Positions 15,722-31,241 of a DNA stretch of 64,000 bases are shown one piece after another. Position 1 is the stretch's first letter, and each line of letters opens with the position of its first letter. The notes below the pieces were generated by a model. The model was not told the origin of the DNA. It searched no databases and saw only the letters and a list, made by a program, of their open reading frames with translations. The position numbers and the translations under genes were made by a program. Location of the stretch: contig NZ_JAGEOJ010000010.1 in the NCBI RefSeq assembly GCF_017573505.1, forward strand, positions 186,001 through 250,000, given 5' to 3'. The DNA is from Actinomadura barringtoniae (GTDB lineage: Bacteria > Actinomycetota > Actinomycetes > Streptosporangiales > Streptosporangiaceae).

Positions 15722-16990
15722 ATGGCCCCTGAGCACACCCCCGAGAACACCTCTCAGAACACCCCTGAGAACGACGCCCCGGCGATCGACCTGATCGACC
15801 AGGACACCTATGAACGCGGCGGCGTACCGCACGACCAGTTCCGCTGGCTGCGCGACCACGACGCCGTGCACTGGCACGCCGACCCGCACCCGGACATCCC
15901 CGGCTTCTGGGCGGTGACCCGCCATGCCGATGTGGTGGAGGTCTCGCGCCGGTCGGAGATCTTCTCCTCGCACGAGCGCGGCCCGATGTTCCCCGAGTCC
16001 ACCGACGAGGACCTCGCGCTCTACCAGATGATGATCCTGTACATGGATCCGCCGGAGCACAGCCAGCGGCGGAGCATGGTCAACAAGGGCTTCACGCCCC
16101 GCATGATCAAGCAGCTCGAGCAGCACATCCGCGACATCGCGCACCAGCTGATCGACGGGGTCGCGGCCCGCGGCGAGGCCGACTTCGTCGAGGACATCGC
16201 CGCGCCGCTGCCCGCGTACGTCATCTGTGAGCTGCTCGGCGCCCCGGTCGAGGACCGGCAGAAGATCTACCACTGGTCGAACCTGATGATCGGGGCCGAC
16301 GACCCCGAGTTCGGGTCCCAGGAGATCGGCCGGCAGACCGCCGCCGAGATCTTCGCCTACGCGGGCGAGCTCGCGACGCTGCGCCGGGCCGAGCCGCGCG
16401 ACGACATCGCGACCAAGCTGCTGCAGCCCGACGCCAGTGGCGAGGCCCTCAGCGACGACGAGTTCGCGCTGTTCGTGCTCATCCTGATCATCGCGGGCAA
16501 CGAGACGACGCGGAACGCCTCCTCCGGCGGCATGCTCGCGTTCTTCCGCCACCCCGACCAGTGGCAGCGGCTGCTGGCCAACCGCGCGCTGCTGCGCACG
16601 GCGCCGGACGAGATCGTCCGCTGGGCGAGCCCGGTCAACCAGTTCCGCCGCACCGCCCTGTCCGACACCGAGCTCGGCGGCAAGAAGATCAAGGCCGGTG
16701 ACAAGGTCGTCGTCTTCTACCCGTCCGCGAACCGCGACGAGCGCGCGATCGACGACCCGTTCACCTTCGACATCGGCCGCGACCCGAACCCGCACATCGG
16801 GTTCGGGGGAGGCGGGCCTCACTTCTGCCTCGGCACGCATCTGGCCCGCTTGGAGCTGAGCGTGCTGTTCGAGGCGCTGCTCGACCGCATGCCCGACATC
16901 AGGCTCGCGGCCGAGCCTCGCCGGCTGCGTTCGAACTTCATCAACGGGATCAAGGAAATGAGAGTGGAGTTCAGCCCGGAGACTCGCTGA
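15722..16990 (+). CDS. Cytochrome P450, CYP124/125/142-like
   Basis: 422 residues from ATG 15722, with GGGAG 5 nt upstream. The I-helix oxygen motif IAGNETTRN matches mycobacterial CYP125, the K-helix ExxR is in DEIVRW, and the heme loop is FGGGGPHFCLGTHLARLE with the cysteine thiolate. The tail NFINGIKEMRVEF is typical of the CYP124/125/142 group, which oxidises the terminal carbon of sterol or branched lipid chains. It is divergent from the GT4 operon and convergent with a second related P450. Its promoter carries a KstR-like box and operator A, supporting control with the SDR/P450 and alcohol dehydrogenase operons. A sterol substrate is likely but inferred. Confidence 0.88.
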   Translation: MAPEHTPENTSQNTPENDAPAIDLIDQDTYERGGVPHDQFRWLRDHDAVHWHADPHPDIPGFWAVTRHADVVEVSRRSEIFSSHERGPMFPESTDEDLALYQMMILYMDPPEHSQRRSMVNKGFTPRMIKQLEQHIRDIAHQLIDGVAARGEADFVEDIAAPLPAYVICELLGAPVEDRQKIYHWSNLMIGADDPEFGSQEIGRQTAAEIFAYAGELATLRRAEPRDDIATKLLQPDASGEALSDDEFALFVLILIIAGNETTRNASSGGMLAFFRHPDQWQRLLANRALLRTAPDEIVRWASPVNQFRRTALSDTELGGKKIKAGDKVVVFYPSANRDERAIDDPFTFDIGRDPNPHIGFGGGGPHFCLGTHLARLELSVLFEALLDRMPDIRLAAEPRRLRSNFINGIKEMRVEFSPETR

Positions 16991-17012
16991 GCCCGAGCCT
17001 GCCTGCCTGCCT

Positions 17013-17034
17013 GCCCTCAGCCTCGGCTGAGGGC
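17013..17034 (+). terminator. Terminator hairpin between convergent P450 genes
   Basis: GCCCTCAGCC, TC, GGCTGAGGGC: a perfect 10-bp stem overlapping the last codons of the minus-strand P450. A short GCCT microsatellite (about 16998-17014) precedes it. Confidence 0.6.
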
Positions 17035-18270
17035 GGCGGCCTTGGTGCCGAGCGGCGTGGAGGGGGTGAAGCGCACGCGCATCTCCTTCACGCCGTTCAC
17101 GAAGTTGGACCGCAGCCGCCGCGGCTCGCCGACCGGCTCGATGTCGGGCATCCGCTCCAGGATCGTGTCGAACAGGACGTTCAGCTCCAGGCGCGCCAGG
17201 TGCGTGCCCAGGCAGAAGTGCGCGCCCCCGCCGCCGAACCCGATGTGCGGGTTCGGGTCCCGGGAGATGTCGAAGGTGAACGGGTCCTCGATCACCCGCT
17301 CGTCGCGGTTGGCCGACCCGTAGAAGATGACGACCTTGTCGCCCGCCCTGATCTGCTTGCCGCCCAGCTCGGTGTCGGCCGTGGCGGTACGGCGGAACAG
17401 GTTGATGGGGGACGTCCAGCGCACGATCTCGTCCGGCGCGGTGCGCAGCAGCGACCGGTCGGCCTTCAGCTTCGCCCACTGATCGGGGTTCTCGAAGAAC
17501 GCCAGCATGCCGCCGACCGACCCGTTCCGCGTCGTCTCGTGGCCGGCGATGATCAGCATCAGCAGGAAGAGCTGGAACTCCTCGATGCTGAGCCGCTCAC
17601 CGCTCTCGTCCGGCTTGAGCAGCGTGCTGGCGATGTCGTCGCGGGGCTCGGCGAGGCGCTCGTGGGCGAGCTGCGCGGCGTACTCCATCAGCTCGCCCGC
17701 GAAGACCTTGGCCTTCTCCTTGGCCCCGGCGAGCTCGGGGTCGGCGAACCCGATGATGTGGTTGGACCAGTCGCAGATCTTCTGCCGGTCCTCGACCGGC
17801 GCGCCGAGCAGCTCGCAGATGACGTACGCGGGCAGGTGCGCCGCGATGTCCTCGACGAAGCAGGCCTCGCCCCGTTCCACCACGTCGTCGATCAGCTCGT
17901 TGCAGATGTCGCGGATGTGGCCCTCGAGCTGCTTGATCATGCGGGGCGTGAAGCCGCGGTTCACCTTGGAGCGGTTCTTGGTGTGGTCCGGCGGGTCCTG
18001 GAACAGCATCATCATCCCGTAGAGCAGGACCTCGTCGTCGGTGAACTCCTCGTACATCGAGGTGCGCACGTGGCTGGAGTACAGCTGCGAGTTCCGCGAG
18101 ACCGTCACCACGTCCTCGTGCCGCGTCACCGCCCAGAAGCCGGGGACGCCGTCGTTCAGGTCGTGGTGCCAGTGCACGGGGTCGTTGTCGCGCAGCCAGG
18201 TGAACTGCTCGTGCGGGATGCCGCCGCGCTCGTAGACGTTCGGGTCGATGATGTCGATCTCGGGGGCCAT
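17017..18270 (-). CDS. Cytochrome P450, paralogue of the 15722 P450
   Basis: 417 residues from ATG 18270 behind AAGGAT. The I-helix is IAGHETTRN, ExxR is in DEIVRW, and the heme loop is FGGGGAHFCLGTHLARLE. The tail NFVNGVKEMRVRFTPSTPLG resembles CYP142 ends. It is very similar along its length to the convergent P450 (shared YERGGIPHEQF, GFTPRMIKQLE, VEDRQKI), so the pair arose by duplication. It follows the SDR gene by 138 bp on the same strand, and the two probably share the promoter near 19.39 kb. Predicted to hydroxylate a sterol or fatty side chain, using the ferredoxin at 10654. Confidence 0.88.
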   Translation of the reverse strand: MAPEIDIIDPNVYERGGIPHEQFTWLRDNDPVHWHHDLNDGVPGFWAVTRHEDVVTVSRNSQLYSSHVRTSMYEEFTDDEVLLYGMMMLFQDPPDHTKNRSKVNRGFTPRMIKQLEGHIRDICNELIDDVVERGEACFVEDIAAHLPAYVICELLGAPVEDRQKICDWSNHIIGFADPELAGAKEKAKVFAGELMEYAAQLAHERLAEPRDDIASTLLKPDESGERLSIEEFQLFLLMLIIAGHETTRNGSVGGMLAFFENPDQWAKLKADRSLLRTAPDEIVRWTSPINLFRRTATADTELGGKQIRAGDKVVIFYGSANRDERVIEDPFTFDISRDPNPHIGFGGGGAHFCLGTHLARLELNVLFDTILERMPDIEPVGEPRRLRSNFVNGVKEMRVRFTPSTPLGTKAAALSRG

Positions 18271-18342
18271 GAGAGATCCTTCTCGCCGGGGTGGAGGGCA
18301 GGGCAGGCTGACGCCAGGACGTGGCGTTTGCCAGGGGGTTTT

Positions 18343-18380
18343 TCGCGCCTGAAGTTGTGGAGCTCGCGCCTGAAGTTGTG
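18343..18380. repeat. 21-bp direct duplication in the SDR-P450 gap
   Basis: TCGCGCCTGAAGTTGTG occurs at 18343-18359 and 18364-18380, separated by GAGC, in the 138-bp gap between the SDR and P450 genes. Confidence 0.75.
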
Positions 18381-18407
18381 AGAGCTGTCGAGTGGTGGAG
18401 CCGTCGG

Positions 18408-19301
18408 TCAGCTGAACTTGAGGGCTTCGGCGGCGCTGAAACCGGCCGAACCAGTGGCGAAGTGCGGGTTCAGGGCCTCGGCGAGGTCGCCGGGGGTCCA
18501 GATGCCATCGGTGGTGACCTGCGCGGCCACGGTCGGCGGCGCCATCACCGCGACCCGGCCGCCGTACGCGACGAACACCTGGCCGGTGACGCCCTCGGCG
18601 GCGGGCGAGGCCAGGTAGGCGACCAGCGGGGCGACGTGGTCGACCGAGAGCGGGTCGGGCCCGTCCTCGGGCGCCGGACCGAAGACGTCCGCGGTCATGT
18701 TGGTGCGTGCGCGCGGGCAGATCGCGTTGGCGCGCACCCCGTACCGGCCGCACGCGTGCGCGGTCGACAGGGTGAGGGCCGCGATGCCGCCCTTGGCCGC
18801 GGCGTAGTTGGGCTGGCCGGGGGCACCGAGCAGGAACGCCTCCGACGCGGTGTTGATGACGCGGGCGTAGACCGGGGCGCCGGTCTCCTTGGACCGCTCC
18901 CTCCAGTAGGAGGCGGCGTGCCGCGAGGTGACGAAGTGGCCCTTGAGGTGGACCCGGACGACGGCGTCCCACTCCTCCTCGGCCATGTTGAAGAGCATCC
19001 GGTCGCGGGTGAACCCCGCGTTGTTGACCAGGACGTCCAGCGAGCCGAACTCGGTGACGGCGGTCTTGACCAGCGCCTCGCCGGTCGACCACTCGGCGAT
19101 GTCGCCTGCGTGCACGACGGCCTCGCCGCCCGCCTTGCCGATCTCCTCGGCGACCGCCTCGACGGCGTCGCCCGGGAGGTCGTTCAGCACGACCCGGGCA
19201 CCGGCGGCCGCCAGCGCGAGCGCCTCCGCCCGGCCGAGTCCCGCGCCGGCCCCGGTGACCACGGCCACCCGTCCGGCTAGGCCCACATCCTGACCTGTCA
19301 C
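18408..19301 (-). CDS. Short-chain dehydrogenase/reductase (Hsd4-like)
   Basis: 297 residues from GTG 19301, chosen for the GGAAGGGG site 5 nt upstream rather than the ATG at 19316. Classical SDR motifs: TGAGAGLG nucleotide loop, NNAG, and the catalytic YxxxK in NYAAAKGG. The overall pattern (LAGRVAVVTGAGAGLGRAEA, VYARVINTASEAFLLGAPGQ) resembles the mycobacterial hydroxysteroid or 3-hydroxyacyl-CoA dehydrogenases of the Hsd4A group. It is probably co-transcribed with the downstream P450; a palindrome array (19341-19408) precedes it. A role in oxidising a side-chain or ring hydroxyl is inferred from context. Confidence 0.83.
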   Translation of the reverse strand: MTGQDVGLAGRVAVVTGAGAGLGRAEALALAAAGARVVLNDLPGDAVEAVAEEIGKAGGEAVVHAGDIAEWSTGEALVKTAVTEFGSLDVLVNNAGFTRDRMLFNMAEEEWDAVVRVHLKGHFVTSRHAASYWRERSKETGAPVYARVINTASEAFLLGAPGQPNYAAAKGGIAALTLSTAHACGRYGVRANAICPRARTNMTADVFGPAPEDGPDPLSVDHVAPLVAYLASPAAEGVTGQVFVAYGGRVAVMAPPTVAAQVTTDGIWTPGDLAEALNPHFATGSAGFSAAEALKFS

Positions 19302-19340
19302 TGACGCCCCTTCCACACGGTCTTCTCACGGTCCAGCACA

Positions 19341-19366
19341 CGAATGACCGATCGCTTGCTTGGTCG
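19341..19366. promoter_or_regulatory. Quasi-palindrome shared with the P450 promoter
   Basis: GACCGATCGCTTGCTTGGTC has GACC/GGTC ends. Its reverse strand reads AGCAAGCGATCGGTCATTCG, nearly the same as 15668-15691 upstream of the P450 gene. Likely a TetR-type operator; regulator unknown. Confidence 0.4.
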
Positions 19367-19381
19367 CGCCCGTATGGAAAC

Positions 19382-19408
19382 GAGTCTCACATGAGACTCC
19401 AGTCTCAT
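19382..19408. promoter_or_regulatory. Overlapping palindromes, operator A
   Basis: ATGAGACTCCAGTCTCAT (19391-19408) has perfect 8-bp arms and 2-bp spacing. It overlaps GAGTCTCACATGAGACTC (19382-19399), an outward-facing version. More half-sites (GTCTAGAC, TGAGATTC) follow to 19430. About 80 bp before the SDR start. Confidence 0.7.
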
Positions 19409-19480
19409 CAAGAGTCTAGACGTGAGATTCGACTGTGGCCTACGCCACGAAAAAGGGTGGTTTATACCGGTTTGAAGAGC

Positions 19481-20491
19481 TCACAGGCCTGCGCGGACGA
19501 AGCGGATGGGGTCATCGGTCCCCGAACGCCGGGCCCTGCCGCGCTTCTCCAGCACGCGCAGATGCGCCGCCGCCTCGCCCGCGGCCATCTGCTTCGACTG
19601 GAGGTCCATCGCCTCCCAGGGATTGCGCCAGTGCATCCCGGCGGCCAGCTGCCACAGCGTCGCGGGCTCGCGCGTGAGGAGCTCGGTGATCTCGGTGAGG
19701 CGTTCCTCGTGATGCTCGGCGATCGCCTTGGCGCGCTCGGAGAGCCCGTTGAAGCGATGCTGGTGGGCCGGGAGCACCTCGTTCACGCTCATGCCCGCCA
19801 CGCGGCCGAGCGAGCCGAGGAAGTCGCCGAGCGGATCGACGTCGGGCAGGTCGTACGGGTAGAGCCCGATGTGCGGCGTGATCCGCGGCAGCACGTGATC
19901 ACCGGTGAAGATCCGGTCGCCGTCCTCCAGATGCAGGCAGATGTGCCCGGGGGAGTGCCCCGGCGTCCACACCACGCGTAGCCGCCGCCCCGGCAGGTCG
20001 GCCAGCTCGCCGTCCTCCAGCTCGCGGTCGGGCAGCGCGGGCGGGTCGATGTGCTCGCGCTTGCCGTGCGCCGCCAGCTCGCCGTCGTCGGCGCCCGCGC
20101 GGGCGAGCGTGGAACGCATCCAACTGCGTTCCACGTCCTGCTCGACCACCTCGCGGAACATCCGGATGACCGCCACGTCGTTGCGGTGCATGGCGATCCA
20201 CGCGCCCGACGCCTCCCGGACGCGGCCCGCCAGGCCGGCGTGGTCGGGGTGGTGGTGCGTGACCACCACCCCGTACACGTCGGCGATGTCGATGCCGAAC
20301 GTGCCGAGCCCGTCGCGCAGCGCGGACCAGGCGTCCTCGTGCTCCCAGCCCGCGTCGACCAGCACCGGCCCGCGCGGGCTCTCCAGGGCGTAGACCAGCG
20401 TGTACGCCAGCGGATTGCCCGGGATCGGCACCGGGATGCTCCACAGCCCACCGCCCAGCTCCTCCGGCCGGGGTCGCGCCGGCGGGCCCAC
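19481..20491 (-). CDS. MBL-fold metallo-hydrolase
   Basis: 336 residues from GTG 20491, with GAGAGG 7 nt upstream. The metallo-beta-lactamase signature HHHPDHAG is present. Further metal ligands lie in VVWTPGHSPGHICLHLE, FTGDHVLP and VLPAHQHRFNG, as in glyoxalase II-like hydrolases. The C-terminal about 90 residues form a helical winged-type extension (LLTREPATLWQLAAGM, AAAHLRVLEKRGRARR) that occurs in the subgroup annotated beside acyl-CoA metabolism. Lactone or thioester hydrolysis is plausible. It lies between the thiolase and SDR genes on the same strand; the ribosome-site region is followed upstream by the G/C-tract repeat at 20502. Confidence 0.82.
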   Translation of the reverse strand: MGPPARPRPEELGGGLWSIPVPIPGNPLAYTLVYALESPRGPVLVDAGWEHEDAWSALRDGLGTFGIDIADVYGVVVTHHHPDHAGLAGRVREASGAWIAMHRNDVAVIRMFREVVEQDVERSWMRSTLARAGADDGELAAHGKREHIDPPALPDRELEDGELADLPGRRLRVVWTPGHSPGHICLHLEDGDRIFTGDHVLPRITPHIGLYPYDLPDVDPLGDFLGSLGRVAGMSVNEVLPAHQHRFNGLSERAKAIAEHHEERLTEITELLTREPATLWQLAAGMHWRNPWEAMDLQSKQMAAGEAAAHLRVLEKRGRARRSGTDDPIRFVRAGL

Positions 20492-20501
20492 GTCAGTACC
20501 T

Positions 20502-20535
20502 CTCAAGGGGGGACGGCCCCCCACGCGCCCCCCGG
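20502..20535. repeat. G6-ACG-C6 hairpin repeat, copy 1
   Basis: CTCAAGGGGGGACGGCCCCC followed by ACGCG and another C-run. A close variant sits at 48035-48066 inside the xdh FAD-subunit gene. Here it is in the 60-bp gap between the thiolase stop and the metallo-hydrolase start. Confidence 0.65.
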
Positions 20536-20551
20536 GCCGACTTCGTCGGCA

Positions 20552-22542
<1,991 letters not shown>

Positions 22543-22883: not shown

Positions 22884-24071
22884 TCAGGCCGCCGCGACGC
22901 GCAGGCTCGCGTAGGTCGGGACGAGCACCCCGCGCGCGGGGCGGCGGGACGGGATGCGGTACGGGCCCGTGACCAGCAGCGTCTCCAGCATCCGGGTGAT
23001 CTGGGTGCGGGCGACCGCGGCGCCGAGGCAGAGGTGACGGCCGCCGCCGAACCACAGCTGGCGGGTCTCCGGCACGTACTCGCGGTGGACGTCGAATGGG
23101 CCCACGCCGTTGTCGGCGAGGTAGGTGAGCAGCAGGACACGTTCCCCGGCGCGGAGCGAACGCCCGCCCACGGTGGTGTCGCGGGCGACGTGACGTCCGA
23201 TCACCGGGGCCGGGGTCGAGACGCGCAGGCCTTCCCGGACAGCGTTCTCCATGAGGGCCGGGTCGGCGAGCAGGTCGTGCTGCTGGCCGGTGTCGTGCAG
23301 GAGCGCGACCGTACGGGACGTGCCGGACGCGCCGGTCTCGGTGCCCGCGATCACCAGCAGGGTGGCCAGGCCCCTGGCGAGGGGCAGGCCGAGCCCCATC
23401 TCGCGGCAGCGGCCGAGGATCGTGTCCGGCCCCGCGGTGAGGTAGGCGTCCGGGACGTTCGCCGTGATGCCCTCGACGATCGTGCGGGCCTGCTGGATCA
23501 CGTCATCGGCCAACTCGGTGGAGGCGGTCGTGCCCATGGCCAGCGCGGCGAGGCGTTCCCCCGACGCGAAGACCTGACGGTAGGCGTCGTCGTCCGTCCT
23601 GTTCGGGAGGCCGAGGACGTCGGAGACCAGGCGGCCCGCCAGGACCCGGGTGGCGTCGGCCACGTCGATCGTTTCGCCTGCCTTCAGGTGGGCGGCGAGG
23701 GCCCGGTAGTGGGCGCCCTGGGAGCGTTCCACCAGGGTGCGGGCGCTCGCCTCGGTGAACAGGTCGCGGGCGCCGGTGCGCAGCTCGGCATGGCGGGCAC
23801 CGCCGAAGAACGCCGCCATCTCGTCCCCGAACAGCTGGCTCCACAGGTGCCCTACGCCGCCCTCGCCCGCCATCCCGAACGCGGCGTGATCGTTCAGCAC
23901 CTGGCGGGCCAGAACGGGGTCGGTCACCACCCAGCCGAGCCGGGGAACGCGCGCGATCGGGCCGGTGTGGCGGGCCGCCTGGAGCAGCGCGTAGAGGCCT
24001 CTGTTGCCCGCCCACAGCAGCCTCGCCTCATGGCGCTCCGCGTGGCCGGTCCTGGTCCTGGTCGTTGTCAC
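22884..24071 (-). CDS. Cytochrome P450 divergent from the ole-like operon
   Basis: 395 residues from GTG 24071; an ATG at 24125 is possible but lies inside the palindrome at 24120-24147. I-helix motif VIAGTETGASG, ExxR within ENAVREGLRV, heme loop FGGGRHLCLGAAVART. The tail ARGVLVPTYASL is nearly repeated in the P450 at 26063 (ARGVLIPTYRRL), and both begin with a short membrane-proximal helix, so they are paralogues serving the same pathway. It probably hydroxylates or desaturates the alkyl chain of the OleA-type product. No ribosome site is clear. Confidence 0.82.
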   Translation of the reverse strand: MTTTRTRTGHAERHEARLLWAGNRGLYALLQAARHTGPIARVPRLGWVVTDPVLARQVLNDHAAFGMAGEGGVGHLWSQLFGDEMAAFFGGARHAELRTGARDLFTEASARTLVERSQGAHYRALAAHLKAGETIDVADATRVLAGRLVSDVLGLPNRTDDDAYRQVFASGERLAALAMGTTASTELADDVIQQARTIVEGITANVPDAYLTAGPDTILGRCREMGLGLPLARGLATLLVIAGTETGASGTSRTVALLHDTGQQHDLLADPALMENAVREGLRVSTPAPVIGRHVARDTTVGGRSLRAGERVLLLTYLADNGVGPFDVHREYVPETRQLWFGGGRHLCLGAAVARTQITRMLETLLVTGPYRIPSRRPARGVLVPTYASLRVAAA

Positions 24072-24119
24072 ATGGATGATTGTGCAGGTCAGTGCGGGCG
24101 GGCAGGGACGCGTGGAATG

Positions 24120-24147
24120 ACTCATTTGGGTGAGTGGTAGTACTCAC
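24120..24147. promoter_or_regulatory. Nested inverted repeats in a divergent promoter
   Basis: ACTCA-TTTGGG-TGAGT (24120-24135) overlaps GTGAGT-GGTAGT-ACTCAC (24130-24147): three half-sites of one motif between the divergent P450 and ketosynthase genes. Likely binds a pathway regulator not encoded next to it. Confidence 0.5.
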
Positions 24148-24261
24148 GTCCGAATGAGCACCAGCGCCCCGGTCGGCCTGCGTAGGGTCTCTCTATTCGC
24201 CGGAGCCCCGGCCCCGTGAGGCTGATCCCGACGAAATCTTCGAGTCCCGGGGGACGTACAC

Positions 24262-25311
24262 GTGTCCATCAGAACCCGCATCGCGGGCGTCGCCGCGCAC
24301 CTGCCCGAGCGGACCCGCACCAGCGCCGAGGTCGAGGCCCGGGTCGCCGCCGAGAGCGGCGGCTACCGGCCGCATCCGACGATCGTCGAACGGATGACCG
24401 GCATCCGCGCACGTCATGTCATGCGCGACGACCAGCAGGCCTCCGACCTGGCGGTGGAGGCCGCCCGCAAGCTGCTCGCCGACGCGGGCACGGCGCCCGA
24501 GGACCTGGACCTGCTGATCTTCGGATCGGCGTCGCAGGACCTGATCGAACCGGCCACCGCGCACATCGTCGCCGCCAAGCTCGGCGCGGCCTGCCCGGTG
24601 TTCGACGTCAAGAACGCCTGCAACAGCTTCCTCAACGCCGTCCAGACGGCCGACGCGCTGATCCGCACCGGGCAGCACCGGCGCGTGCTGGTCTGCGGCG
24701 GCGAGACGCCGTCGCGCGCGATCCGGTGGAGCGTGCGCGACCGCGCGCAGTTCGTCGACGCGTTCGCCGGCTACACGCTGTCGGACGCGGGTGCGGCGAT
24801 GCTGCTCGAGGCCGTGCCTGGCTCCGGGCCCTGCCTCGGGCCCGGCTCTGGGCCGGACGGGGACTCGGGGATCTTCTACCGGGACTTCGCGGCGGTCTCG
24901 ACGGCCTGGGACATCGGGACGCTGCCCGGCGGCGGCTCGATGCACCCGCGCGACCCCGAGCACTCCTACTTCAGCGGCGACGGGCGGCGGCTGAAGGACG
25001 CCTTCCTGGCCAACGGGCCGGAGATCTTCGTCCGTGCGCTGGAGAACACCGGGCTGGGCTGGGACGACTTCGCCGTCGTGGCCGTTCACCAGGTGACCAT
25101 GCCCTACCTGGAGGTGCTGCGGAGCGTGCTCGGCATACCGGCGGACCGGCTCGTGGTGACCCTGCCCGAACACGGGAACGTCGCGTCCGCGACCCTGCCG
25201 CTGCAACTGGCCACCGCGATCGAGGAGGGGCGCTGCGGCCCCGGCGACCGCGTCGCGATGGTCGGGCTGGCGGGCGGCGTGAGCCTCGGCGTCGTCTTCG
25301 CGGAGCTGTGA
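24262..25311 (+). CDS. OleA/FabH-like 3-oxoacyl synthase III
   Basis: 349 residues from GTG 24262, behind a G-run. Thiolase-fold KAS III with a full catalytic set: Cys in VKNACNSFLNAV, His in VHQVTMPYLEVL, Asn in EHGNVASATLPLQL. The segment DLIEPATAHIVAAKLG followed by FDVKNAC and VCGGETP resembles OleA, which condenses two acyl-CoAs head to head, more than housekeeping FabH. The Glu of IEPATA aligns with the OleA catalytic-base Glu, as I recall that family. It opens a six-gene operon (GT2, P450, OleC-like, OleD-like, GH20), separated by 2 bp from the GT2. A long-chain beta-keto acid product is expected. Confidence 0.82.
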   Translation: MSIRTRIAGVAAHLPERTRTSAEVEARVAAESGGYRPHPTIVERMTGIRARHVMRDDQQASDLAVEAARKLLADAGTAPEDLDLLIFGSASQDLIEPATAHIVAAKLGAACPVFDVKNACNSFLNAVQTADALIRTGQHRRVLVCGGETPSRAIRWSVRDRAQFVDAFAGYTLSDAGAAMLLEAVPGSGPCLGPGSGPDGDSGIFYRDFAAVSTAWDIGTLPGGGSMHPRDPEHSYFSGDGRRLKDAFLANGPEIFVRALENTGLGWDDFAVVAVHQVTMPYLEVLRSVLGIPADRLVVTLPEHGNVASATLPLQLATAIEEGRCGPGDRVAMVGLAGGVSLGVVFAEL

Positions 25312-25313
25312 TC

Positions 25314-26066
25314 ATGGATCTCTGGGTGGTCGTCCCCGCGTACAACGAGGAGCGCTCGATCGGCGCGACGCTGCGCCGGCTGAACGAGCAGGCCGACGCC
25401 GACTTCACGCTGGTCGTGGTCGACAACACCAGCACGGACCGTACCGCCGAGGTGGTGCGCGAGTTCGCCGAGGAGCATCCCAAGCTCGACCTGCGGATCG
25501 TCCGCGAGACGCAGAAGGGCACCGGCGCCGCCGCCGACACCGGCATCCGGCACGCCATCTCGGCCGGGGCGACTCACCTCGCGCGGACCGACGCCGACTG
25601 CCTGCCCGAACGCGACTGGATCGGGGCGGTGAAGCGGGCGTTCGACGAGGGGCTGGAGCTGGTCAGCGGGCCGCTCCGGCCGCGCACGGACGAGTTCGCG
25701 CTGCGGCTGTGGGAACGGCGGCTACTGCCGGCGGTGGTCGAGATGGCCGCGATGTTCGGGCGCTTCCGGCCGGGCAACCAGGACCCGATGTATCTCGGAC
25801 CGTACGTGATGATGCCCGGCTGCAACGTGGCCATCACCGCTGAGCTGTATGAGCGGGCGGGCGGTTTCCCGCGTACTTGCATTGAGGACGTGCACGAGGA
25901 CCGGGCGCTGGTCAACCGGGTGCGCTACCTGACGGCCGCCTACGGGTTGCGCAAGGACGTCGTGGTGTACGGGTCGGTGCGGCGGCTGCGGGCGTTCGGC
26001 CTGGTGCGCACGCTGGGCTGGTACGCCGACCACCGCTACAAGCCCGATGTGGTGGACATCCGATGA
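25314..26066 (+). CDS. GT2-family glycosyltransferase
   Basis: 250 residues. GT-A fold with VVVPAYNEERSIGATL at the start, VVVDNTSTDRT, the metal-binding DxD within RTDADCLPE, and an acceptor-side motif CIEDVHEDRALVNRV resembling the ED segment of inverting GT2 enzymes. There is no strong membrane helix, so the enzyme is probably soluble or peripheral. It starts 2 bp after the ketosynthase stop and overlaps the P450 start by 4 bp (ATGA). The context suggests sugar transfer to a hydroxyl on the lipid made by the neighbouring Ole-like enzymes; donor sugar unknown. Confidence 0.83.
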   Translation: MDLWVVVPAYNEERSIGATLRRLNEQADADFTLVVVDNTSTDRTAEVVREFAEEHPKLDLRIVRETQKGTGAAADTGIRHAISAGATHLARTDADCLPERDWIGAVKRAFDEGLELVSGPLRPRTDEFALRLWERRLLPAVVEMAAMFGRFRPGNQDPMYLGPYVMMPGCNVAITAELYERAGGFPRTCIEDVHEDRALVNRVRYLTAAYGLRKDVVVYGSVRRLRAFGLVRTLGWYADHRYKPDVVDIR

Positions 26067-27229
26067 GGGCTAGGGATTGGGAACGGCGGCTCTATATGGC
26101 AGCCCACCCGTTCGCTTACCCGTTGCTGCGCGGGCTCGCGCGGCGAGGGGCTGTCGTACGCGTGCCGGGGGTCGGTGTCGTGGTGAACGACGCGGCCGTG
26201 GCGCGGTCGGTTTTGATGAACGGGGAGACCTTTCGCAAGGACGGGCCGGGGTCGCCTGGGGATTTGTGGACACCGATCCTCGGGCCGTCCGTTCTGCTCA
26301 ACATGGAGGGGGAGGGGCATCGCGCGCTAAGGAGGCGCCTGACCGACCTCTTCACGCCCTCGTATACAGAAGCGCTGTGCGAGCGGGTCCTGGCCGAGCC
26401 TCTGGCGCGGCTCGGTGACCGGCTGGAGCGGGGCGGCGTCGTCGATCTCGTCGACACGATGCGGGTGACGGCGGGCGCCGTGATGGGCGAGGTCATCGGC
26501 CTGGAGGCGCACGACGAGGCCGCCTACAGGCATCTCTTCGAGCAGGGCGAGGAGATCGTCTCGATGGTCTCGCTGCGGTCCCGGCGGCTGTCAGACCGGC
26601 AGGTCGAACGGGCCCGGGCCGTCCTCGATCCGCTCGGCGACATCGCCGCCAAGGCGTACGCGTCCGGCGACGAGAGCACGGTGATGGGCCGCATGCGCAC
26701 GCTGGGCCTGTCGGAGGCGGAGGCGCGCGGCGCGGCCGGGGCGTTCTTCCTCACCGGCACCGAGACCGTCGCGACGCTCGTGCCGCGCTTGGTCGCGCTG
26801 CTGCACGACTCGGGCGCGCTGAACCGCGTGGCCTCTGGGGATGCGGCTCTGCTGGACCGGGCGATCGACGAGGCCATGCGGGTCACGACGCCGACGCCCG
26901 TGATGCTGCGCAGCGTGCACGGCCGGGTGGAGGTCGGCGGTGTGGCGGTGAAGCCGGGCGACCGGATTCTGATAGCGACGCACAACTGCTGCCAGGCGTA
27001 CGGCCCGTTCGACGTGGACTCCTCGCGCGGCGGGGAGCTGCGGCGGTTGTGGTTCGGGGCGGGGCCGCACTTCTGCATCGGCTACCCGCTGGCGATGGCC
27101 GAGATCCGTGCCGTCGCGCGGACCGTCCTGGCCGCCGCGCCGCTGCGCATCACGCGGCGCGAGGCGGCTCGCGGCGTGCTGATCCCGACCTACCGCCGCC
27201 TCGTGATCCGATCGGAGGCCTCCTCGTGA
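26063..27229 (+). CDS. Cytochrome P450 within the ole-like operon
   Basis: 388 residues, ATG overlapping the GT2 stop. I-helix motif FFLTGTETVATL, ExxR in DEAMRV, heme loop FGAGPHFCIGYPLAMAE. The N-terminal region VVRVPGVGVVVNDAAVARSV and tail ARGVLIPTYRRL mark it as a paralogue of the divergent P450 at 22884. It overlaps the following ligase gene by 4 bp (GTGA). A tailoring oxidation of the alkyl chain, providing the hydroxyl for the GT2, is a plausible order of events; substrate inferred only. Confidence 0.85.
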   Translation: MRARDWERRLYMAAHPFAYPLLRGLARRGAVVRVPGVGVVVNDAAVARSVLMNGETFRKDGPGSPGDLWTPILGPSVLLNMEGEGHRALRRRLTDLFTPSYTEALCERVLAEPLARLGDRLERGGVVDLVDTMRVTAGAVMGEVIGLEAHDEAAYRHLFEQGEEIVSMVSLRSRRLSDRQVERARAVLDPLGDIAAKAYASGDESTVMGRMRTLGLSEAEARGAAGAFFLTGTETVATLVPRLVALLHDSGALNRVASGDAALLDRAIDEAMRVTTPTPVMLRSVHGRVEVGGVAVKPGDRILIATHNCCQAYGPFDVDSSRGGELRRLWFGAGPHFCIGYPLAMAEIRAVARTVLAAAPLRITRREAARGVLIPTYRRLVIRSEASS

Positions 27230-28743
27230 CGCTCGTACGTCAGCTGCTCGACCAGGCCGCCCGCACGCCGGACGCGGTGGCGCTGGTCGCGGGCGACGGA
27301 GCCGAGACGACCTACGGCGAGCTGCGCCGCCGGGTCCTGGCCGTGCGGCACGGCCTGATCGCTGCGGGGCTTGAGCCCGGCGACGGCGTGCTCTTCTCCG
27401 TGCGGCCTTCGCCTCAGTCGCTGGTCCTGGCGCTGGGCGTGGTCGCGGCGCGCGGTGTCGTGGTCTTCGCCGATCCCGGAGCCGGCCCGGAGATGTTCAC
27501 CGCGCGGCTCCGGCTGGCCAATCCGCGCTGGTCGGCGGCCGAGTCGATCCTCTACGCGGGCAGCCGTCTCCGGCTCGTCCGGGCGTACGCGCGCCGCCGC
27601 GGCCTGCTGCTCCCCGACCTGTCGGACCTCGGCATCCCCGGCCACATCTACGTGGGTCGCCGCCTGCCCGGCGTTCCTCCGTCGGCCATCCCGTTCGATC
27701 GTCTCGTTGGCGGGGGCGCGCCGGAGCCGGACGGTGGCGAGGACGACGCCGATCCGCACGCGCCCGCCGCCGTGATCTTCACGTCCGGGACCACCGCGCA
27801 CCCGCGAGCCGTCGTCCACACGCAGTCCTCGCTCGCGTCCGCGCTGGACCTCTTCCGCGCGCGGCTCCCGCTCGGGCCAGGCGACATCGTGCACACCGAC
27901 CAGCTCATGCTCGGCCTGCCGACGCTGATCTCGGGCGCCCGCTGGTCGATGCCGCCGCTGTTCGCCTCGCCGCTGGAGTTCGCGACGCAGCTCCGGCAGC
28001 GCCGCGCGACCCACACGTTCTGCGTGCCGGTCCACCTCGCCGAGATCCTCGACGCCGACCCGACGCTGTCGGCGACCCTCCGGCACGTTCTGCTGGGAGC
28101 GGCGCCCGCGCCCGCCGGGATCCTCCGCCGGGCCGTCGCCGCCGCGCCGAACGCCCGGGTGCTGTCGGTCTACGCGATGACCGAGATCCTGCCCGTCGCC
28201 ATCGCGACCGCCGAGGAGAAGCTCGCCCACACCGCCTCGGGCGCGGACGGGGATCTGCTCGGGCAGCCCTTGCCTGGGGTGGGGGTGACCCTTGCCGACG
28301 ATGGCGAACTGCTCCTCTCCGGGCCCAACCTTTGCCTTGGCTACCTGGGCGACCCGCCGCTGAAGGAACTGCCCACCGGCGACCTGGCCCGCCTCTCTCC
28401 TGACGGCGCCCTGGTCCTCATGGGCCGCAAGAAGGACATGCTGATCCGGGGCAAGTTCAACCTCTATCCCGGCCTGTACGAGCCCGCGATCGCCGCGCTC
28501 GACGGCGTCACCGAGGCCGCCATCGTCGGCCTGCCCGACCCGCAGACCGGCGACGAGGAAGTGGTGCTCGCCGTCGTCGGCACCGCGACGCCCGCGCACC
28601 TTCGCCGCCGCCTGCCCGACGTGATCGACCACGACGCGCTGCCCGACCGGATCGTCGCCGTACCCGAGCTGCCCCGCTCGGGCCGCGGCCGTAAGCTCGA
28701 CCGGGACCTGCTCCGCGAACTCGTCCAAGGGGGGAACGCATGA
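27226..28743 (+). CDS. OleC-like AMP-dependent synthetase (beta-lactone synthetase candidate)
   Basis: 505 residues from GTG 27226, with GGAGG at 27214-27218. ANL-superfamily adenylating enzyme: P-loop VIFTSGTTAHPRAVVHT, motif YAMTEILPV, and the hinge region TGDLARLSPDGALVLMGRKK with the late Lys segment SGRGRKLDRD. The N-terminal VVVFADPGAGPEMFTARLRL recalls the VLVDPG region of OleC. OleC converts 2-alkyl-3-hydroxy acids to beta-lactones with ATP, and its place just before an OleD-like gene supports that role. Ordinary acyl-CoA or acyl-AMP ligase remains an alternative. It overlaps the next gene by ATGA. Confidence 0.78.
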   Translation: MTLVRQLLDQAARTPDAVALVAGDGAETTYGELRRRVLAVRHGLIAAGLEPGDGVLFSVRPSPQSLVLALGVVAARGVVVFADPGAGPEMFTARLRLANPRWSAAESILYAGSRLRLVRAYARRRGLLLPDLSDLGIPGHIYVGRRLPGVPPSAIPFDRLVGGGAPEPDGGEDDADPHAPAAVIFTSGTTAHPRAVVHTQSSLASALDLFRARLPLGPGDIVHTDQLMLGLPTLISGARWSMPPLFASPLEFATQLRQRRATHTFCVPVHLAEILDADPTLSATLRHVLLGAAPAPAGILRRAVAAAPNARVLSVYAMTEILPVAIATAEEKLAHTASGADGDLLGQPLPGVGVTLADDGELLLSGPNLCLGYLGDPPLKELPTGDLARLSPDGALVLMGRKKDMLIRGKFNLYPGLYEPAIAALDGVTEAAIVGLPDPQTGDEEVVLAVVGTATPAHLRRRLPDVIDHDALPDRIVAVPELPRSGRGRKLDRDLLRELVQGGNA

Positions 28744-29708
28744 AGATCGCAGTCACCGGCGCCTCCGGCTTCGTCGGGGGAGCGGTCTGCCGCGCCCTCG
28801 CGGGACAGGGCATCGACACGTTCGCCTACGGCCGCCGGGCCGCCGTCCCGCCCGGCCACCTCGGCGGCGCGACCTACACCTCATGGGACCTGACGACCGG
28901 CCCCCTCCCGGGCGCCCCCGAGGTCGACGCCGTCGTTCACTGCGCGGGAACGGTGACCGACTGGGGACCCGCGGCGACGTTCTTCATCACCAACCTCGGC
29001 GGCACCGAGAACGCGCTGAAGACCTTCCCTACGGCGCGCTTCGTCCACGTCAGCACGGCCAGCGTCTACGACCCGTACCGGCCCACCGTCATGGCCACCG
29101 AGGACCAGGCGCCCGTCACGCGCTACCTCAACGCGTACGGCGCCTCCAAGATGGCCGCCGAGAAGGCGGTCTTCGCCCGCATGCGCGGCTGGGGCCCGAC
29201 ACCCTGGGCAGGCCGCCGCCGCGAGGCGATCATCCTGCGCCCCCACGCGGTCTACGGCCCGGGAGACACGACCCTCCTGCCGCGCGTCCTGTCCTCGGTC
29301 CGAGGCCCGTTCCTGCCCGCCACCGGAACGCCGGACACCCTGGTCAGCCTCACGTCCATCGGCAATCTCGTTCAGGCCTGCGTCCTGGCCGCCACCGGCG
29401 CGGTCGGCACCGGCGTCTTCAACGTGACCGACGCCGCCCCCATCACGCTGGACGACGCGTTCCGCGAGATCCTCGCCGAACGCGGCATCAACGCCCGCCC
29501 GCTCTACCTCCCGTATACGGCTCTGCGCCCGGTGGCCACCGCCGTGGAGGGCGCCTTCCTCCTCGCCCGCCGCCCCGGCCCGCCGCGCCTGACCCGCTAC
29601 GCCATCAGCCACCTGTCCGTCGAACGCACCCTCGACATCACCGCGGCGCGTGAGAATCTTGGCTACGACCCCAAGGAGACGACCTTCGCCGGGGCCGCCG
29701 ATTGGTGA
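28740..29708 (+). CDS. OleD-like NAD(P)-dependent 3-keto acid reductase
   Basis: 322 residues, extended SDR. The Rossmann loop TGASGFVGGAVCRAL, the FVHVSTASVYDP serine region, and the catalytic YGASKMAAEK motif are all present. It resembles OleD, which reduces the 2-alkyl-3-keto acid made by OleA to the hydroxy acid used by OleC. The same fold includes sterol C4-decarboxylating dehydrogenases and sugar epimerases, so the assignment rests on the cluster. Its TGA forms part of the ribosome site (GAGGAG) of the GH20 gene. No OleB hydrolase is present nearby. Confidence 0.8.
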   Translation: MKIAVTGASGFVGGAVCRALAGQGIDTFAYGRRAAVPPGHLGGATYTSWDLTTGPLPGAPEVDAVVHCAGTVTDWGPAATFFITNLGGTENALKTFPTARFVHVSTASVYDPYRPTVMATEDQAPVTRYLNAYGASKMAAEKAVFARMRGWGPTPWAGRRREAIILRPHAVYGPGDTTLLPRVLSSVRGPFLPATGTPDTLVSLTSIGNLVQACVLAATGAVGTGVFNVTDAAPITLDDAFREILAERGINARPLYLPYTALRPVATAVEGAFLLARRPGPPRLTRYAISHLSVERTLDITAARENLGYDPKETTFAGAADW

Positions 29709-29717
29709 GGAGCCCCG

Positions 29718-31241
29718 ATGCCCGAGGCGTACCTGATCCCCGCCCCCCGACGCCTCGAGCTGACCGGCGAGTCCGGCCCGTTCACCGGCGAAGTTCAGAC
29801 CCGCGTCGACCCGTCACTGGGACCCGAGGCCTACACCCTCACGACCTCGGCCTCCGGCGCCGAGATCGTCGGCGGGGACGAGGCGGGCGTCTTCTGGGGG
29901 CTTCAGACTCTGCGGCAGTTGCAGGGCCCCGACGCGTTCCGCCGCGCCCGCATCTCCCCTCACCCTTTCGAGATGCCGTACGGCCGCATCGAGGACGTCC
30001 CGCGCTTCCACTGGCGCGGCTTCATGCTGGACGTCGCGCGCCACTTCCTGCCCAAGGACGACGTACTGCGCTACGTCGACCTGCTGGCCGCCCACAAACT
30101 GAACGTCCTGCACCTGCACCTGACCGACGATCAGGGCTGGCGCATCGAGATCAAGCGGCACCCTCGCCTGACCGAGGTCGGTGCGTGGCGCCGCAAGACC
30201 CGCCTGGGCTGGGGCGAGCCGGTCACCTACGACGAACGACCGCACGGCGGCTTCTACACCCAAGACGACCTGCGCGAGATCGTCGCCTACGCCGCCGAAC
30301 GCCACATCACCGTCGTCCCCGAGATCGACCTGCCGGGCCACTCGCACGCCGCCATCGCCGCCTACCCCGAGCTCGGCAACGCCGACGTCATCGACACCGC
30401 CGCGCTGGAGGTGTGGACTGAGTGGGGCTTCAACCCCCACTCCCTAGCCCCCACCGACGAAGTCCTGGATTTCTACGAAGGCGTCTTCGACGAGGTCCTG
30501 GACATCTTCCCGAGCCGGTTCATCCACATCGGCGGCGACGAGTGCCGCAAGGAGGAATGGCGCGCCTCGCCGACGGCCCAAGCCCGCATGCGCGACCTGG
30601 GCCTCAAGAACGAAGACGAACTCCAGTCCTGGATGATCCGCCACTTCGACCGCTGGCTCACCGCACGCGGCCGCCGCCTCATCGGCTGGGACGAGATCCT
30701 CCAGGGTGGCCTGGCCGAGGGCGCCGCCGTGGCGTGCTGGCGCTGGTACTACGGCGGCATGGAGGCCGCCGAAGCAGGCCACGACGTCGTCATGTGCCCG
30801 CAGCAAGAGGTCTATCTGGACCATGTCCAGTCCTCCGACCCCGACGAGCCCGTTCCGTTCGGCTGGGTGCACACCCTGGAGGACGTCTACCGCTTCGAGC
30901 CCATCCCGCCACGCCTGGCCGGCACTCCTCACGAGTCCAACGTCATCGGCACCCAGGCCAACCTGTGGACCGAGGTGGTGGAGAGCCGCTCCCGGGCCGA
31001 CTACCAGACGTTCCCCCGCCTGGCCGCGTTCGCCGAAGTCGCCTGGTCGAACCTCCCGTTGCCAGACGACCGCGACTACGCCGACTTCGAGCGCCGCATG
31101 AACAACGCCCACTACGCCCGCCTGGACGCGATGGGCGTCGCCTATCGCCCGCCCTCCGGCCCGCTCCCGTGGCAGCAACGTCCAGGCGTCCCAGGCCGCA
31201 TGCACGGCAAACCCCGCCGCACCTGGCGCATGGCCGACTAA
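29718..31241 (+). CDS. GH20 beta-N-acetylhexosaminidase
   Basis: 507 residues. The small N-terminal GH20b domain (about 1-110) precedes a TIM barrel with PRFHWRGFMLDVARHFLP, NVLHLHLTDDQGWRIEIKR, VPEIDLPGHSHAA and the catalytic Asp-Glu pair in HIGGDECRKEEW. There is no signal peptide, so it should work in the cytosol, unlike most chitin-degrading relatives. It begins 9 bp after the OleD-like gene and appears to be the last gene of that operon. It could remove GlcNAc or GalNAc from a glycosylated intermediate, or be a bystander in sugar recycling. Confidence 0.88.
   Translation: MPEAYLIPAPRRLELTGESGPFTGEVQTRVDPSLGPEAYTLTTSASGAEIVGGDEAGVFWGLQTLRQLQGPDAFRRARISPHPFEMPYGRIEDVPRFHWRGFMLDVARHFLPKDDVLRYVDLLAAHKLNVLHLHLTDDQGWRIEIKRHPRLTEVGAWRRKTRLGWGEPVTYDERPHGGFYTQDDLREIVAYAAERHITVVPEIDLPGHSHAAIAAYPELGNADVIDTAALEVWTEWGFNPHSLAPTDEVLDFYEGVFDEVLDIFPSRFIHIGGDECRKEEWRASPTAQARMRDLGLKNEDELQSWMIRHFDRWLTARGRRLIGWDEILQGGLAEGAAVACWRWYYGGMEAAEAGHDVVMCPQQEVYLDHVQSSDPDEPVPFGWVHTLEDVYRFEPIPPRLAGTPHESNVIGTQANLWTEVVESRSRADYQTFPRLAAFAEVAWSNLPLPDDRDYADFERRMNNAHYARLDAMGVAYRPPSGPLPWQQRPGVPGRMHGKPRRTWRMAD

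Follow-up and report, generated by a model that had tools for sequence, protein, structure and literature searches.

An OleB-less, Ole-type gene cluster near-universal in Actinomadura is a candidate source of a beta-lactone glycolipid

The available text of PMC7064751 (mBio 2020) describes a gene cluster in Actinoplanes atraurantiacus that encodes OleA, a glycosyltransferase, OleC, a cytochrome P450, and OleD without OleB, and predicts that its product is a hydroxylated, glycosylated beta-lactone. Here, we analyze a related cluster in Actinomadura barringtoniae, located at positions 22884 to 31241 of a 64,000-nucleotide stretch of contig NZ_JAGEOJ010000010.1 (the whole stretch is referred to as the window). 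A preliminary description of this DNA had not recognized the combination of genes from a described pathway, a view superseded by the 2020 account, in which the same gene set and predicted product appear. We find that the cluster is a real, widespread, OleB-less cluster of the Ole type that forms its own subtype within a class put forward earlier in the literature; the finding that nearly all genomes of the genus carry it is, as far as our searches show, new.

The core of the cluster is a run of genes on the plus strand: an OleA-like ketosynthase (KS; 24262 to 25311), a 250-amino-acid GT2 family glycosyltransferase (25314 to 26066; PF00535, 82.4 bits), a cytochrome P450 within the operon (P450b, 26063 to 27229; PF00067, 41.7 bits), an OleC-like adenylate-forming AMP ligase (27226 to 28743; PF00501, 162.4 bits), and an OleD-like extended short-chain dehydrogenase/reductase (SDR; 28740 to 29708). 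KS and GT2 are separated by 2 bp, the next three junctions each overlap by 4 bp, and a GH20 hexosaminidase gene (29718 to 31241, plus strand) follows the SDR gene after 9 bp. A second cytochrome P450, P450a, is encoded divergently (22884 to 24125, minus strand; PF00067, 36.2 bits), with a possible alternative GTG start at 24071; P450a and P450b are paralogues that share 36.6% identity over 342 amino acids (E = 7.7e-63). The six-gene run and the divergent paralogous P450 of the preliminary description are thus borne out by the open reading frame coordinates and by Pfam, which supports the family label of each gene in the set.

A protein-guided scan for KS relatives gave 47 loci, of which one with a match over 41 residues (L085) and two from Bacteroidota with 26% identity (L083 and L084) were set aside. 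In the 44 related loci (L039 to L082), which carry close KS relatives at 63 to 83% identity, the order KS-GT2-P450b-ligase-SDR recurs 39 times, and the gene set is therefore far beyond chance; the neighborhood comparison proposed in the preliminary description accordingly revealed a conserved gene order. P450a lies divergently next to KS in 27 of the 44. Irregular loci include one with the ligase in two pieces (L071) and two with frame breaks (L050 and L070). Most hosts are named Actinomadura; the others are Spirillospora, Actinocorallia, Nonomuraea, Streptosporangium, Planobispora, Sphaerisporangium, Thermocatellispora, Catellatospora, and two metagenome-assembled genomes (MAGs). Counting proteins with 60% identity or more as orthologues, we found that 115 of the 345 genomes of the order encode the SDR (60 to 82% identity). 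These comprise 60 of the 65 genomes of the genus, the A. barringtoniae genome included, and 55 of the 280 others. Thirteen further genomes among the 345 encode a relative at only 34 to 37% identity. Because the SDR orthologue is present in 60 of 65 genus genomes, the cluster is not rare but near-universal in the genus.

The genes also remain associated where the operon is broken up. In all six genomes of two other genera (five of one genus, G323 to G327, and G020 of the other), KS and ligase share a locus and P450a/GT2-P450b-SDR occupy a second; in G020 there is a predicted gene between P450b and SDR, and the match to the ligase copy of G323 contains an internal TGA. In four Nonomuraea genomes, KS, P450b, and SDR form a triad, which is also present at one further locus (L288, genome G175), and the ligase is found at a separate locus in all four. 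The 20 genomes searched for the ligase each encode a close relative of it (at least 57% identity), and the MAG behind L056, a locus with no SDR, carries the missing genes on another contig (L165). We considered whether absence of the ligase from the operon proves the lactone dispensable and rejected this argument, since the ligase is present elsewhere in the four Nonomuraea genomes and in the six genomes of the two other genera. These observations indicate that the genes are kept together in the genome even when the operon is split, a pattern absent, as far as our searches show, from the literature searched.

The relocated Nonomuraea ligase (L161:8751-12481; also L162 to L164) adjoins ATP-grasp and GNAT genes in all four genomes, with Pfam names taken from one of the four, and lies near ribosomal-protein and glmM-like genes, named by eye. 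The ATP-grasp neighbor was rejected as a general part of the cluster because none of the 30 genus genomes examined gave a match, in a search run without a positive control.

Upstream of KS, we identified a conserved inverted repeat, the palindrome GTGAGTGGTAGTACTCAC (24130 to 24147). Sites matching at least 14 of its 18 positions occur upstream of KS in 24 of 43 related loci, all from hosts named Actinomadura or Spirillospora and mostly about 115 nucleotides before the KS start; the maximum among 200 shuffles of the window region was 13 of 18. Of 30 genus genomes, 17 contain a single copy of the core pattern TRAGTGNNRGTACTCAY and 13 contain none; its reversed control gave no match in the 30. 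Sixteen of the 17 sites lie 4.5 to 4.8 kb upstream of the SDR, which places them at this operon, and one (G260) is on a different contig from the SDR. The split operons have no palindrome site above the level of the shuffles. A TANNNT box about 35 nucleotides downstream of the palindrome (24183 to 24188) may be a -10 element. We propose that the palindrome is a putative operator of a cluster-specific regulator; it is nearly exclusive to the operon and, as far as our searches show, absent from the literature searched.

These data bear on the possibility that the locus is a chance or catabolic neighborhood, in which lipid-degradation genes lie beside unrelated P450s and make no single product. 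Genes for a thiolase, an MBL-fold protein, and P450s do recur upstream in many related loci, as such a neighborhood might show, but the operon spacing, the gene order in 39 of 44 loci, the retention of the genes together after splitting, and the operon-specific palindrome all speak against it, and we give this explanation a very low probability.

The KS carries C120, H276, and N306 together with an OleA-type E96-P97 pair, the Glu117-Pro and Cys-His-Asn set of OleA. E96 aligns without gaps with Glu117 of Xanthomonas OleA, a position occupied by Phe in two FabH structures (the numbering follows from the offset to the catalytic Cys, which we take to be Cys143 in the Xanthomonas enzyme). Glu-Pro, Cys120, His276, and Asn306 are invariant in all 48 distinct type I KS proteins and in all 11 KS proteins of the type II loci discussed below. 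According to the accessible portion of PMC7064751, Glu117 is essential in X. campestris OleA and is followed by Pro in all but two OleA proteins of the set studied there. In a 39-row tree, the window KS falls within a clade that contains OleA, the KSs of two-KS-type loci, and a second KS of the same genome (support, 99/96), while six other type III ketosynthases (KSIIIs) of the genome and two Bacteroidota KSs lie outside; two partner KSs with very long branches (L116b and L117b) were dropped from this tree, and one row (own_L008) is a 104-amino-acid fragment. With the same 39 rows, a clade of the window KS and canonical OleA alone was not the best tree (p-AU 0.096), and a clade of the window KS, OleA, and two-KS-type KSs that omits the second KS was rejected (p-AU 0.0019). 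The preliminary description had allowed that the KS might group with FabH, and it does not: the KS stands apart from the FabH of its own genome and scores 139.9 with the curated fabH model TIGR00747 (cut-off, 292.1), which one of the six other KSIIIs of the genome passes at 334.9. This protein is, on the evidence of its sequence, OleA-like rather than a canonical OleA, and it is predicted to carry out head-to-head condensation.

The second OleA-like KS of the genome (L238:7362-10785; contig C27 at about 77 to 81 kb, minus strand) is 372 amino acids long, has the Glu-Pro motif, and groups with the two-KS-type KSs in the 39-row tree. It is accompanied by a partner KS-like protein (295 amino acids) and a WS/DGAT acyltransferase, and some nearby genes, judged by eye, look like those of universal stress proteins. 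The 20 kb around it showed no gene of OleC or OleD type, and it possibly belongs to a different, two-KS lipid pathway.

We compared the ligase with 16 OleC rows drawn from 18 reference loci in which KS, OleC, and OleD lie side by side (L118 and L132 were omitted). In three trees it is placed outside the other adenylate-forming enzymes, taken from this and related genomes, with support of 99/96 against 20 others, 99 against 41 (by a quick method), and 100/98 against 27; four more OleC rows were dropped from the tree with 41 others, and fourteen adenylate-forming rows were also dropped from the tree with 27. The L110 and L111 rows are OleC/OleBC-like, being placed beside OleBC_L133. The motif TE-x-[LVM]-P is present in 8 of 8 ligases of the window's own type and 16 of 16 OleC rows, compared with none of 41 other adenylate-forming enzymes (this last count by eye), and the type II ligases read TE-x-F-P in 11 of 11. 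The grouping with ordinary acyl-CoA ligases against which the preliminary description had set its proposal did not appear, and this candidate identity is also disfavored by topology tests, in which a single clade with FadD-like rows has p-AU values of 0.0077 (five rows) and 0.031 (nineteen rows), values that share the long-branch problems of the model. Together, these comparisons suggest that the enzyme is likely a relative of OleC with lactone-forming chemistry.

The two best NCBIfam hits of the SDR are OleD models (122.5 bits with NF042422 and 116.9 bits), with the next model at 46.0; among the matches listed for this genome, with 5 of 143 first-look candidates scored, no other protein is of OleD type. 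The heme-Cys, ExxR, and I-helix motifs are intact in 28 of 28 P450a and 44 of 44 P450b proteins, those of the window included. The best NCBIfam model of P450a is that of a glycosyltransferase activator (TIGR04515; 73.6 versus 343), and the intact heme-Cys motif in all 28 disfavors the view that P450a is a catalytically dead protein of this kind. In the GT2 protein, D93-A94-D95 is invariant in an alignment of 21 sequences. Its predicted structure (pLDDT 79.3) has a GT-A fold and lies nearest to PcManGT (6yv7, the best solved match) and WrtF; this model does not fix which sugar is transferred.

As the preliminary description had stated, the gene set has no OleB; none that is convincing was found in the genome, a draft of 75 contigs that is 96% complete with 6.3% contamination. 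With the OleB domain of an OleBC fusion as the single query, the best match in this genome scored 65.6 bits at 28% identity. The same search gave 65.5 bits in a genome with an Ole-type locus lacking OleB (G579), and 149 and 243 bits for OleBs encoded in Ole loci.

We propose, with a probability of roughly 0.5, that P450a, KS, GT2, P450b, the ligase, and the SDR constitute one OleB-less, Ole-type lipid pathway that ends in a beta-lactone. KS would join two acyl thioesters head to head to give a 2-alkyl-3-keto acid, and reduction by the SDR would give the 2-alkyl-3-hydroxy acid. An acyl chain would be hydroxylated by one or both P450s, and GT2 would glycosylate the hydroxyl introduced in this way. 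Once the OleC-like ligase has adenylated the carboxylate, the neighboring hydroxyl would attack it to form the beta-lactone, and this ring would be retained because OleB is missing. The substrates, the order of the steps, the sugar, and the lactone itself are predictions. Of the pathway outlined in the preliminary description, we retain the OleA-, OleC-, and OleD-like enzymes acting without OleB and their link to P450 and GT2 functions.

Several results weigh against this proposal. For the KS, FabH-named structures lead a plain sequence search (131 and 126 bits, compared with 117 to 120 for OleA-type proteins), the best NCBIfam model is a general KSIII model whose cut-off is not reached (178.3 versus 249), and a smaller tree without the KSIIIs of the genome joined the KS to the two Bacteroidota KSs (89/89). 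The published A. atraurantiacus OleA was active on p-nitrophenyl hexanoate and unreactive with the acyl-CoAs tested, with little protein recovered, in the available text of PMC7064751. The A. atraurantiacus result and the FabH-named leading matches, together with the only 25 to 31% identity between the window KS and the KSs of canonical ole loci, could also mean that the enzyme is a head-to-head ketosynthase of another type, one that links a single fatty acyl chain with a partner that is short, branched, or carrier bound. The product scaffold would then differ from an Ole-type long-chain acid, although the later steps would be similar. The OleA-type Glu-Pro pair, the position of the KS in the OleA-containing clade, and the OleC- and OleD-like partner enzymes argue otherwise, and we regard this alternative as improbable.

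The ligase contributes further points of this kind. Its score with PRK09274/NF006754, a model we take to be an OleC marker, is 118.7 bits, under the OleC-type cut-off of 478; another ligase of the same genome, on a different contig, reaches 175.5 with PRK09274 (the best listed, with 3 of 165 candidates scored). Three orthologues of the ligase score 114 to 131 bits with this model, and OleBC-fusion proteins, at 336 to 380 bits, are likewise under the cut-off. In addition, the ligase is the sister of OleC only with the root placed among other adenylate-forming enzymes, and it retains a CoA-ligase-like N-[LI]-Y-P stretch. An enzyme of this sort might instead make a CoA or other activated ester, in which case the same KS, SDR, P450, and GT2 chemistry would yield a hydroxylated glycolipid with a 2-alkyl-3-hydroxy acid as its backbone and no beta-lactone. 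The retained stretch is in line with this activated-ester product, as is a higher score with the long-chain acyl-CoA ligase model PRK06187 (158.8 bits), which with PRK09274 is the best NCBIfam match. Set against these are the three trees that place the ligase outside other adenylate-forming enzymes, its OleC-type motif, and its pairing with KS in split genomes; we consider the activated ester a possible but rather unlikely outcome.

The other difficulties for a beta-lactone pathway concern the SDR, OleB, and the composition of some loci. The SDR falls under the curated OleD cut-off of 580 (NF042422), which discriminates poorly in this group because none of 394 genomes of the class reaches it. 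Stronger OleB-like matches are present in two cluster-bearing relatives (116.2 bits at L198 in G740 and 100.5 bits at L199 in G281); these could be OleB-like hydrolases encoded elsewhere in those genomes. GT2 was not found in any of the four Nonomuraea genomes at an E value of 1e-10, and P450a does not adjoin KS in 17 of the 44 related loci, some of which are ended by contig edges.

Taken together, near-universal presence in the genus, co-retention after splitting, and an operon-specific palindrome argue for a lineage-typical lipid, and we infer a membrane or signaling lipid rather than a sporadic antibiotic. In its fullest form, this interpretation holds that an oxidized glycosyl beta-lactone lipid, or its opened form, is a near-core cell component of ordinary physiology, controlled by a dedicated regulator that acts at a single site, in almost every species of Actinomadura type and, through type II, in many Micromonosporaceae; we offer this only tentatively, since the odds are against all of it being correct. 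The presence of the SDR orthologue throughout most of the genus suggests that these bacteria make a lipid that has gone unnoticed. If the cluster indeed makes a beta-lactone glycolipid, it would extend the known classes of reactive lipids, supply conserved enzymes for substituted beta-lactones, and might account for some of the "betalactone" regions of Actinomadura genomes: the accessible text of PMC12837462 reports betalactone clusters of unknown kind in several Actinomadura species. The question lends itself to testing, since the cluster is widely distributed and its operon occurs in naturally split form. The available portions of PMC11626248, PMC9903846, and PMC7158056 name no product for the cluster, and we found no report of its product in the open literature, with subscription papers mostly outside the search.

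The preliminary description had counted the hexosaminidase as a pathway member, a role we reject: no GH20 gene was found in the 44 related loci (L044 and L046 hold only about 1.2 to 1.3 kb after the SDR, and L056 lacks the SDR) or in 29 loci whose flanks extend up to 1.5 kb and which partly come from the same genomes as the 44 (L039 and G266, for instance, have contigs of equal length). The gene is probably a passenger. Upstream of the cluster, positions 15722 to 21712 carry two divergent P450 genes together with genes for an SDR, an MBL-fold protein, and a thiolase; the MBL and thiolase genes occur in 25 of 45 loci, the window counted in, and may be part of a lipid or steroid breakdown block.

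In the family of Catellatospora, a related KS is encoded in 67 of 200 genomes and is of two kinds, with 11 at 63 to 75% identity and 56 at 48 to 53%. The four loci of the first kind that were examined (L252 to L254 and L266) have the window order. Eleven loci of the second kind (L255 to L265), designated type II, all carry KS-GT2-ligase; 7 have a second GT2, 10 a recognizable P450, and 9 an SDR (L255 is masked at the SDR, and no SDR was seen in L261). Their P450s keep the heme-Cys as FGxGxHACPG by eye (L256 to L265), and the usual I-helix acid-alcohol motif was seen in none of the 11 loci, with L255 masked. In two type II loci (L258:5985-7427 and L262:12432-14006), the additional GT2 forms a fusion with a BrkB-type membrane domain, an arrangement that hints at a membrane lipid. 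The type II order, KS-GT2-ligase-P450-SDR, matches the A. atraurantiacus description in the available text of PMC7064751, and from the described order that cluster would be type II.

Compared with canonical oleABCD, the window cluster has in common a KS with Glu-Pro and Cys-His-Asn, an OleD-like SDR, and an OleC-related ligase, but its KS, ligase, and SDR are only about 21 to 33% identical to their counterparts in the 18 reference loci, and it lacks OleB or an OleBC fusion and has P450s and GT2 in addition. With the lipstatin/nocardiolactone type it shares an OleB-less OleACD logic; that type has two KS genes, as in L116 and L117, which we assign to it on their presumed organization, whereas the window operon has a single KS together with GT2 and P450s. 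Its closest counterpart is the A. atraurantiacus cluster as it appears in the accessible text of PMC7064751, which has the same five functions, likewise lacks OleB, and has the same predicted product. The two differ in gene order, KS-GT2-P450b-ligase-SDR in the window type, often with a second, divergent P450, and OleA-GT-OleC-P450-OleD in the published cluster. The window-type P450s also carry the usual I-helix motif, which was not seen in the 11 type II P450s, and the window type is the form found in Actinomadura and its relatives.

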